A DNA stretch of 64,000 nt from Hydrogenobaculum sp. 3684 (GTDB lineage: Bacteria; Aquificota; Aquificia; Aquificales; Aquificaceae): positions 62,001 to 126,000 of the forward strand of contig NC_015557.1 in the NCBI RefSeq assembly GCF_000213785.1, written 5' to 3'. A model generated the notes under the pieces. That model was not told where the DNA came from, did no database searches, and saw only the letters and a program-made list of their open reading frames with translations. Position numbers and translations under genes: made by a program. Of this stretch, positions 27,221 to 30,062 are shown in pieces; position 1 is the first letter of the stretch; every line of letters begins with the position of its first letter.

Positions 27221-27250
27221 TTGCAACGTTGATGCAACATTGATGCAACA
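27221..27250 (+). promoter_or_regulatory. 11-bp phased repeats, likely enhancer (UAS) of the sigma-54 activator
   Basis: GCAAC occurs three times at 27223-27227, 27234-27238 and 27245-27249, exactly 11 bp apart, within the repeated unit TTGATGCAACA. One-turn phasing puts them on one DNA face. They lie about 100 bp upstream of the -24/-12 promoter, the usual place for enhancer-binding protein sites. The activator gene follows three genes later. Confidence 0.65.
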
Positions 27251-27320
27251 TGAAACATTAGCATTTTTTAAAGTCATTAGAATGTCAATGGTTTATTATT
27301 AAAAGTTTATTACATTATGA

Positions 27321-27336
27321 TGGCACGATATTTGCC
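27321..27336 (+). promoter_or_regulatory. sigma-54 (-24/-12) promoter
   Basis: TGGCAC (27321-27326), five bases, TTGCC (27332-27336): the invariant GG (27322-27323) and GC (27334-27335) are separated by the required 10 bp. Start expected near 27347, 25 bp before the ATG at 27372. It matches the RpoN consensus closely. Confidence 0.85.
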
Positions 27337-27371
27337 ATATAAATAGTATCAAACGTTAGGAGGTGTGGCTT

Positions 27372-27713
27372 ATGGCTACAGTTAGCAAGCTAAAAGAGCT
27401 CATGACTCTCCCGGGTGCTGTGGCAGCGGGCGAGTTTACAGACGATGGTAGGTTGGTAGCCTACTACGGGGATATAGATGAGAAATCTGCCGAAATTGCA
27501 GCTATGATGTGTGCTGCCAACAAGCTTATGGGTAATATGCAGGCTAAAGGTTGGAGTACTTACACTGGCAAAGATGGTTTTTATCCAGTAGAGGGCTTTG
27601 CGGTGGCTGGTGGTAAGTATGTAGCTTGTATTTTCGGCAACGTAGGTGTGTTTTTGGAACTTTCAAAAGCTGATTTTGACAAGACCTTTGAAGTACTATC
27701 AAAACATATTTAA
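27372..27713 (+). CDS. DUF2173 family protein (first copy)
   Basis: A 113-residue soluble protein. It shares with the next gene the frame GAVAAGEF-DG-LVAYYGDI, then AAMMCAAN, GW-Y-GK, and GFAV-GGKY-ACI-GNVGVF. Members of DUF2173 occur mostly in sulfur- and hydrogen-oxidising bacteria and archaea; their fold resembles roadblock/LC7-type small domains and their function is unknown. The start is the ATG at 27372, supported by AGGAGGTG upstream; a GTG at 27363 is less likely. It is the first gene of a sigma-54-controlled unit and is 11 bp from its paralogue. Confidence 0.85.
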   Translation: MATVSKLKELMTLPGAVAAGEFTDDGRLVAYYGDIDEKSAEIAAMMCAANKLMGNMQAKGWSTYTGKDGFYPVEGFAVAGGKYVACIFGNVGVFLELSKADFDKTFEVLSKHI

Positions 27714-27724
27714 GGAGGTGTAAT

Positions 27725-28048
27725 ATGGCAAACCTTGATCAACTTTTAAGCATAAAAGGTGTATGGGCAGCTGGTGAGTTTTCTCAGGATGGTAAACTCT
27801 TGTCTTACAAAGGCAACATAAGTGAAGAAGAAGCTGCTATGGCAGCTATGATGTGTGCTGCCAATATGATGATGGCTGAGATGCAAACCCAAGGTTATAC
27901 AGCCATGTCTGGCAAAGAATGGACTCCTCTTGCAGGCTTTGCCCTTACTGGTCCAAAGTACTCTGTTTGTATTGGAAAGGGTGTTGGCGTTTTTGTAAAC
28001 AACGACGAAGTTTCTTTTAACGAAGTGTTCAAAGCTCTTTCTTCCTAA
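27725..28048 (+). CDS. DUF2173 family protein (second copy)
   Basis: A 107-residue paralogue of the preceding protein, with the same order of motifs (K-G-V-W-A-A-G-E-F, AAMMCAANMMMAEMQ, GFALTGPKYSVCIGKGVGVF). The copies are clearly diverged, so they may form a heterodimer. Both carry a cysteine in AAMMCAAN and one in the final strand. AAGGAGGTG precedes the ATG. A hairpin after this gene probably lowers transcription of the downstream genes. Confidence 0.85.
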   Translation: MANLDQLLSIKGVWAAGEFSQDGKLLSYKGNISEEEAAMAAMMCAANMMMAEMQTQGYTAMSGKEWTPLAGFALTGPKYSVCIGKGVGVFVNNDEVSFNEVFKALSS

Positions 28049-28063
28049 GGTTTATGGTGTTAC

Positions 28064-28090
28064 TGGGGGTGGGGAGCCCCCACATTTTTT
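28064..28090 (+). terminator. hairpin with T-run inside the sigma-54 operon
   Basis: TGGGGG (28064-28069) pairs with CCCCCA (28077-28082), followed by CATTTTTTG. The position, between the DUF2173 pair and the SCP2-like gene, suggests partial termination, so that the DUF2173 genes are made in excess over the regulator. Confidence 0.65.
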
Positions 28091-28107
28091 GTTTAGGAGT
28101 GGAATTT

Positions 28108-28494
28108 ATGTATAAATTTTTATCTTATGATTTTATAAAAGCTTACAAAGATCAATGGAACAAAAACGAGAAACTTAAAAATGATCTTAAAAACTTCTCT
28201 GCTAAGCTAAAATATTATATAATCTCTAAAGAGAATGAAGCGGTAGAGCTTATAATAAAAAATGGAGAGGCTATAAGCTGTGGAATGGCAGACGGTAAAG
28301 ATTACGATTTTGAAATGTGGGCTACATTGGAAGACTGGAAATCGCTTGCTACAGGGCAAATGGGACCAAAAGCTGCCATGCTTACAAAGAAGTTAAAGTT
28401 TAAGGGTTCTATGATAACAGCTATGAAATATATGGGAGCTTTTGAGGAGAGTTTGAGGATGATGGGTAGCGTACCTGTGGATTGGAATGCTTAA
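28108..28494 (+). CDS. SCP2 sterol-binding-like domain protein
   Basis: A 128-residue protein. The order of a helix start (FLSYDFIKAYKDQWN), a strand region (KYYIISKENEAVELIIKNGEAISCG), D-F-E-M-W-A-T-L-E-D-W, then A-A-M-L-T-K-K-L-K-F-K-G-S and a final helix matches the SCP2-like fold, which binds acyl or other hydrophobic groups. AGGAGTGG lies upstream of the ATG. It is encoded between the DUF2173 pair and their presumed activator, so it may be part of the same response. The ligand is unknown. Confidence 0.65.
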   Translation: MYKFLSYDFIKAYKDQWNKNEKLKNDLKNFSAKLKYYIISKENEAVELIIKNGEAISCGMADGKDYDFEMWATLEDWKSLATGQMGPKAAMLTKKLKFKGSMITAMKYMGAFEESLRMMGSVPVDWNA

Positions 28495-28502
28495 TATGTT
28501 TT

Positions 28503-30062
28503 ATGGATTTTAGTATATTCGATGAGCTTCTTGACGGGGTTTTGGTAATAGGCTTAGACTATAAGATAGTTTATGCCAACGATTCTGCTAAAAAGCTTCT
28601 TGACGTAAAAGAAAACGATTTTTGTAAAGGACTTTTTAGTATATGTAATTCTTGTCCCTTAAAGCTTGTTTTGGAAGATAGAGAAAGCGTGCAGGTTTAC
28701 GATATAAAAACCAACACAGATGTTCATGCTTGTTGGAGTATGAGCCCTCTTTTTAATGGTGATAAATGCGAGGGGGTAGTGGAGGTCTTTAAAGATGTAA
28801 GCAACGTAGTTTCTTGTATATTAGAATCTCAAAGACAAAAAACCTACAAAGAAACAATTTTAAACTCTATAGTAGAGGCAATACTTGTTTTGGATGAAAA
28901 CGGTTATATAGTAGAGCACAACAATATAGCCAAAAAAATGCTTTGTAGAACCAGTGAAGAATCTTTGATAGGAAGGCATATAAAAGAGCTTGTGAATCTG
29001 AGTTTAGAAGAGTTTCCTCCACAAGGAGAAAGAACAGATGTATACATAGAAACTCCGTGTGGTAGGCAAAAAGCATCAACGCTTGTATCCCCTATGAATC
29101 TTGGTTTTGGTTATGTGGTATCTTTTTATGTGATCCAGCAAGATAATATGTCTTTTTGCGATAAACTAGATTACATTTTTACCAAAAGTCCAACATTTCA
29201 AAAAGTACTAGATTTAGTGAAATCTTGTTCAGAGCACAATGTAAACGTGCTTATAGAAGGAGAAACCGGCACAGGCAAAAGCCTTTTGGCAAAATACATA
29301 CATCTTTTGTCCCCAAGAAGAGATGCTCCTTTTGTTAAAGTAAACTGTGCTGCTATACCAGAGAACCTCTTGGAGGCAGAGCTTTTTGGATATGTAAAAG
29401 GAGCTTTTACAGGGGCCACAAAAGATAAACCCGGTAAAGCGGAGATAGCTGATGGCGGAACTTTGTTTTTGGATGAGATAGGGGATATGCCACTGAGCTT
29501 ACAGGCAAAAATTCTCCACCTTGTAGAAGAAAAAGAATTTGAAAGACTTGGCTCAAACACCCCCAGAAAGACAAATATAAGGATTATAGCTTCCACTAAC
29601 AAAGACATAAAAGAGCTTATGAGACAAGGGCGTTTTAGAGAAGATCTTTATTACAGGTTAAGTGTTGTGAACATATATCTACCCCCTCTTAGAGAAAGAA
29701 AAGAAGATATACCGCTTTTAATAAATAATTTTATAGAAAAATATTCAAAACTCTATTCAAAAAGGGTAAAATCAATATCTGGTGATGCTATAAAAATACT
29801 CCTTGGTTATGATTTTCCAGGTAACATCAGAGAATTAGAGCATATTATAGAAAAGGCTGTAATAACATGTAGAAGTAGCATAATAAATATTGAAGATATA
29901 AGTCTAGATTTTCAAAGCAACAACCATAAACAGCAAGAAGAAAAAGAAAGGATAAAGGCTGTCTTAGAAAAGGTAAATTACAACAAGAGTTTGGCGGCAA
30001 AAATGCTTGGTATACACCGTACCACTCTTTGGAGAAAGTTAAAAGAGCTTGGTATTGGCTAA
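28503..30062 (+). CDS. sigma-54-dependent activator with two PAS domains (PAS-PAS-AAA+-Fis)
   Basis: A 519-residue enhancer-binding protein. PAS 1 spans about 5-100 and carries five cysteines (C41, C48, C51, C77, C89); C-x6-C-x2-C-P-L there is common in sensor PAS domains and may hold a metal or act as a redox switch. PAS 2 spans about 115-215. The AAA+ core has Walker A G-E-T-G-T-G-K-S (253-260), the sigma-54 contact loop G-A-F-T-G-A (300-305) and D-E-I-G-D-M-P. A Fis-type helix-turn-helix ends the chain. There is no receiver domain, so it senses its signal directly. The -24/-12 promoter and phased repeats at 27.2-27.3 kb are its likely targets. An ATG at 28482 is an alternative start. Confidence 0.92.
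   Translation: MDFSIFDELLDGVLVIGLDYKIVYANDSAKKLLDVKENDFCKGLFSICNSCPLKLVLEDRESVQVYDIKTNTDVHACWSMSPLFNGDKCEGVVEVFKDVSNVVSCILESQRQKTYKETILNSIVEAILVLDENGYIVEHNNIAKKMLCRTSEESLIGRHIKELVNLSLEEFPPQGERTDVYIETPCGRQKASTLVSPMNLGFGYVVSFYVIQQDNMSFCDKLDYIFTKSPTFQKVLDLVKSCSEHNVNVLIEGETGTGKSLLAKYIHLLSPRRDAPFVKVNCAAIPENLLEAELFGYVKGAFTGATKDKPGKAEIADGGTLFLDEIGDMPLSLQAKILHLVEEKEFERLGSNTPRKTNIRIIASTNKDIKELMRQGRFREDLYYRLSVVNIYLPPLRERKEDIPLLINNFIEKYSKLYSKRVKSISGDAIKILLGYDFPGNIRELEHIIEKAVITCRSSIINIEDISLDFQSNNHKQQEEKERIKAVLEKVNYNKSLAAKMLGIHRTTLWRKLKELGIG

Follow-up and report, generated by a model that had tools for sequence, protein, structure and literature searches.

A unit of four genes, which includes a sensor-activator of its own together with a sigma-54 promoter and a candidate activator site, is carried by heat-loving Aquificota and is described here from Hydrogenobaculum sp. 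3684, within a window of 64 kb from contig NC_015557.1; the genome is complete, comprises 1.55 Mb and belongs to the Aquificaceae. The unit is real and conserved, and is apparently undescribed in the literature that we searched. Its regulatory circuit is probably that of a self-contained, autoregulated sigma-54 operon with one target. Such a circuit is of a known kind, a one-component sigma-54 activator with an adjacent target, and what is new is the effector set and the cysteine-rich PAS sensor. If this is true, a sigma-54 circuit that serves a single target, and whose sensor is a PAS domain rich in cysteines, extends across the whole phylum.

In the proposed circuit the first, cysteine-rich PAS domain of the activator (PAS1) would sense a redox-type signal, and the activator, bound to dyads of the TTGCAAC type about 110 bp upstream of the transcription start, would then remodel the sigma-54 polymerase waiting at the -24/-12 element. 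As the last gene of the transcript, the activator gene would be under its own control, and a hairpin after the second gene, together with strong ribosome sites for the first two, would provide for much of the first two products and less of the others. We know of no function for DUF2173, the family to which those two products belong. Since the arrangement recurs across the phylum, the function of DUF2173 proteins becomes directly testable; and because promoter, putative binding site, sensor and partners lie in one conserved package that could be rebuilt in a laboratory strain, signal and function can be tested together. In the searched literature DUF2173 is named by a single paper, and COG4831 and guessed Aquifex locus numbers were not found; a 2025 survey of sigma-54 regulons makes no mention of DUF or sterol-carrier genes.

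Anatomy of the unit

All elements named by the original prediction were recovered in their places by sequence and profile search, on the forward strand of the window. The first two genes, D1 (27372-27713) and D2 (27725-28048), are indeed DUF2173 paralogues, matching PF09941 with E-values of 1e-39 and 3e-38 respectively. They are followed by a gene for an SCP2-like protein (28108-28494), which matches PF02036 with an E-value of 2e-17 (63.8 bits, above the cut-off of 21.3), and by the activator gene (28503-30062), whose product has the PAS-PAS-AAA+(GAFTGA)-Fis layout that had been predicted, as profile matches and the motif in the sequence confirm. The activator probably starts at ATG 28503; TTG 28482, an earlier reading corrected here, is only mechanically possible.

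The proposal that a partial terminator separates D2 from the SCP2-like gene is borne out by a hairpin (TGGGGGTGGGGAGCCCCCA) followed by a T-run (CATTTTTT) at 28064-28090, a probable partial terminator whose position is kept across relatives. Of 39 distinct loci, 21 have a G+C-rich hairpin with a T-run after D2, where shuffled sequences give 1.25; the hairpin sequences differ and some loci have none. The ribosome site AGGAGGTG is strong before both D1 and D2, and perfect before D1, and the site before the activator is weak. Hairpin and ribosome sites thus fit the excess of D1 and D2 that was originally suggested.

Promoter and candidate activator sites

The -24/-12 promoter, described beforehand as canonical, is a perfect match (TGGCACGATATTTGC, 27321-27335) ending 36 bp 5' of the D1 start codon, a position from which a transcription start near 27346 is predicted. 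Of 44 distinct upstream regions compared across relatives, 35 contain TGGCAN8GC (in shuffles, mean 0.5 and maximum 3), usually 36-60 bp 5' of the D1 ATG, with a weak match in some loci. No convincing sigma-70 promoter was found on the coding strand between the boxes and D1. The genome encodes four strong sigma-54 activators and an intact-looking rpoN, with a product of 395 aa ending in the RpoN box (RRTVAKYR). TGGCAYN5TTGC occurs eight times in it, and at least two of the other -24/-12 sites precede genes that look sigma-54-controlled: good sites lie before an arsenite-oxidase-like Rieske gene, itself near another activator gene, and before a nifW-like gene (G000:C1:273919 and 872403; L096, L100).

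Upstream of the promoter, TGCAAC boxes at 27222, 27233 and 27244 bear out the three elements phased at exactly 11 bp that had been noticed, and a fourth, degenerate one (TGAAAC) follows near 27251. The boxes form overlapping imperfect dyads of 17 bp, TTGCANC-N3-GNTGCAA (27221-27256), and the putative functional site is better described as the dyad TTGCAAC-N3-GTTGCAA than as a repeat series, the 11-bp direct repeat being made up of the half-sites of this dyad. The clearest form among relatives, TTGCAACACTGTTGCAA, is likewise a 17-bp dyad, the form to be expected with a Fis-type dimer. At least two TGCAAC/GTTGCA boxes are present in 41 of the 44 distinct upstream regions (shuffle mean 1.0, maximum 6); their spacings are mostly 11 and 12, and in most loci the first box lies about 70-100 bp 5' of the -24 element.

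The distribution of the boxes is that of a site with one target. The pair TGCAACN5TGCAAC occurs once in the whole Hydrogenobaculum genome, upstream of D1, and allowing one mismatch adds just two stray sites. Among 136 Aquificota genomes the pair is present in 43, at the unit in 32, at a relic or contig end in four and only elsewhere in seven; read backward, as a control, it gives four matches in total. We consider it highly improbable that the boxes belong to another regulator while the neighbouring activator acts elsewhere: one genome (G038) does have an activator gene without the box pair, but the boxes are almost confined to the unit, which in turn is almost always accompanied by the same activator, and where the activator differs the boxes differ too. 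This last case is Hydrogenophilus, in which the -24/-12 site is kept and TTGAAACA repeats stand in place of TGCAAC boxes. The pairing of activator and phased boxes in the original proposal is strongly supported by their co-occurrence, and the activator is predicted to bind them.

Conservation and co-inheritance

Boxes, promoter and activator are all kept beside DUF2173 genes across two Aquificota families, so that the original proposal withstood the comparison with relatives that might have refuted it. About 40 Aquificota loci, almost all of those fetched, have the order D1-D2-SCP2-activator on one strand, whereas the genes flanking the unit are common to loci within a genus only and differ between genera. 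The distance matrices of the four proteins correlate at 0.60-0.76, D1 being the most conserved (median distance 0.15) and the activator the least (0.44).

PF09941 has matches in 56 of the 136 genomes, of which 47 are of the paired type once nine fused-type matches are set aside; the N-terminal PAS-PAS part of the activator is found in 48. The two are inherited together: 45 genomes have both, 86 neither, two paired DUF2173 only and three the activator only. The five exceptions are a relic (G007) and a contig end (G044) among those that lack the activator, and a fragment (G002) and two contig ends (G047 and G048) among those that lack paired DUF2173.

Two genomes, G038 and G004, carry the activator gene apart from D1-D2-SCP2, with D1 still preceded by boxes. 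Because of this separation, and since the separate activator gene of G038 has no box pair, autoregulation is not universal. In G038 (L150:3427-6532; G038:C1:681426-684531) the activator gene lies 3' of the sulfite dehydrogenase genes sorA-sorB, with overlapping frames, 0.4 Mb from D1-D2-SCP2 and adjoining a transposase-like gene. In G001 (L074:6373-7965) the activator coding sequence is divided between two frames, which may reflect either a broken circuit or a sequence error.

Relics retain the boxes. In G011, boxes and promoter remain and the first D1 codons run straight into the final activator codons, the whole unit having been lost in one clean deletion. G026 retains boxes and a broken activator, and G007 has boxes and a D1 match interrupted by a stop, with no other unit gene in the fetched contig. 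The junction in G011 (L132:1040-1260) lies at a shared stretch encoding KLKEL, with boxes and promoter left in place; the idea that the unit is lost more readily where a KLKEL stretch is repeated at both its ends was rejected, there being no enrichment.

The activator

PF00158, PF25601 and PF02954 match the activator above cut-off, and Walker A (GETGTGKS) and GAFTGA are present in its sequence. Having two PAS domains and no receiver, it is not a two-component response regulator of the NtrC kind. In PAS1, Cys41, Cys48, Cys51 and Cys77 (numbered from ATG 28503) are invariant in 33 of 33 sequences; the structural model has only moderate confidence around these cysteines, and the PAS pair is similar in fold to DosP and FixL. 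The cysteines suggest, as a reasonable reading, that PAS1 is a metal or redox sensor, and make it a candidate for a PAS sensor of the Fe-S type.

The closest parallels share some features and differ in others. Like the PspF-Psp system, the unit sets a dedicated activator beside a small effector operon with a -24/-12 promoter, upstream sites and few targets; unlike PspF, the activator normally lies inside the operon and carries a pair of PAS domains, and in place of PspA the effectors are DUF2173 proteins and an SCP2-like one. The NorR/NifA class has the same sensor-AAA+-Fis layout without a receiver, and NorR controls one adjacent promoter through several neighbouring sites. The AAA+ domain scores 311 bits against the NorR model and 331 against the NifA model, both below the curated cut-offs, and the activator differs from this class in its sensor, a PAS pair with four cysteines rather than a GAF domain, in its binding site and in its target. 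PAS sensors of the NreB/FixL type offer a third comparison: NreB has four cysteines, as does PAS1, whereas here the spacing is C-x6-C-x2-C...C, the sensor is mounted on a sigma-54 activator, and metal binding is only putative.

D1, D2 and the SCP2-like protein

The D1 model, of high confidence (pLDDT 94), runs helix-strand-strand-long helix-three strands-helix, and the fold predicted from it is of the Roadblock/LC7 (MglB-like) type. A Foldseek search returned Roadblock/LC7 proteins, MglB and Ragulator subunits, the best being 3kye from Streptomyces (E 3e-6, TM 0.81). D1 shares this predicted fold with MglB and LAMTOR/Ragulator, but at 13-18% identity and with no GTPase partner in the unit, and the Roadblock model PF03259 gives 13.6 and 16.1 bits for the DUF2173 proteins, below its cut-off of 23. 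D1 and D2, as proteins of predicted Roadblock fold, most likely pair in a heterodimer. The partnership is supported by nine matches in Hydrogenothermaceae, each a single protein of some 213-231 aa with a weakly matching first half and a DUF2173 second half. In the two cases inspected (L070:4433-6599, L071:2247-4371) the fused DUF2173-like protein adjoins a GltD-like NADPH oxidoreductase.

The fold matches to MglB and Ragulator might imply that some small Ras-like GTPase is controlled by D1-D2, on the pattern of MglB and MglA. This we judge very unlikely, as no GTPase gene occurs in any unit inspected, and none of MglA size was detected in the Hydrogenobaculum genome with PF00025, which gives there only weak matches in large frames such as those of translation or EngA-type GTPases; these weak matches are themselves weak evidence of absence. 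Since no small MglA-like GTPase was detected, D1 and D2 probably form a GTPase-independent platform.

Roadblock proteins are commonly adaptors, which lends some appeal to the reading that D1 and D2 are feedback inhibitors or partners of the activator, as PspA is of PspF, and not the end effector. Hydrogenophilus argues in the same direction, its activator beside D1-D2-SCP2 being a protein of 327 aa with AAA+ and Fis only and no sensory domain, so that a partner protein should control it. Most of the activators, however, have two PAS domains of their own, and the operon looks built for an excess of D1 and D2, which makes this role for the pair rather doubtful.

Physiological role and variant units

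As the end effector, the D1-D2 heterodimer would act as a GTPase-independent platform with the SCP2-like carrier during redox or respiratory adaptation, a role that we put forward tentatively as a possibility. Several units have a small cytochrome c gene inserted between D2 and the SCP2-like gene, and G028 has a second, divergent unit (L065:568-4156; G028:C16) in which box, promoter and activator are kept and other genes swapped in, giving D1', D2', multiheme cytochrome c, hemerythrin and activator. In Hydrogenophilus a cytochrome c551-like gene, as well as the sensor-less activator, adjoins D1-D2-SCP2. Adaptation of a redox or respiratory kind is what the inserted cytochrome c and hemerythrin genes, along with the cysteines of the sensor, point to. 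A fuller and speculative version, which we would not expect to hold in all its parts, is that DUF2173 pairs are GTPase-free Roadblock heterodimers, produced in excess by a metal-sensing sigma-54 circuit of their own, and would either join the SCP2-like carrier in buffering or transporting a hydrophobic redox compound, for instance quinone or polysulfur, or control the activator, as an undescribed cytoplasmic redox-adaptation system.

The frequency of DUF2173 in sulfur and hydrogen oxidisers had been noted at the outset, and a DUF2173 gene is induced by elemental sulfur, 99-fold and 32-fold, in two Sulfolobaceae (PMC11323534). That the unit is specific to sulfur oxidation, for sulfur or sulfite handling, would also accord with the position of the G038 activator 3' of sorA-sorB, but this is a single case beside a transposase-like gene. 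Within Aquificota no link to the marker genes tested (soxB, sorA, GcvH/LbpA-like) was found, and these markers lend no support there to the suggestion that DUF2173 goes with sulfur or hydrogen oxidation. soxB is not correlated with the unit, many soxB-positive genomes being without it; sorA, in 28 genomes only, is not correlated either; and the complete Hydrogenobaculum genome has neither gene. With GCV_H copy number taken as a proxy for the sHdr pathway, most Aquificaceae with good assemblies have 5-7 copies and Hydrogenothermaceae 2-3, whether the unit is present or not. As soxB, sorA and GcvH/LbpA-like counts do not follow the unit, a specific sulfur pathway is unsupported inside Aquificota, and we regard a sulfur-specific role as unlikely.

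Beyond the Aquificota, DUF2173 was found on plasmids in Methylocystis iwaonis only, with no SCP2 or activator annotated nearby, and none was found in viral contigs. Two loci (L037:4736-5854, L042:3084-4182) carry a divergent D1'-D2'-SCP2' set, without boxes of its own, directly upstream of a normal unit.
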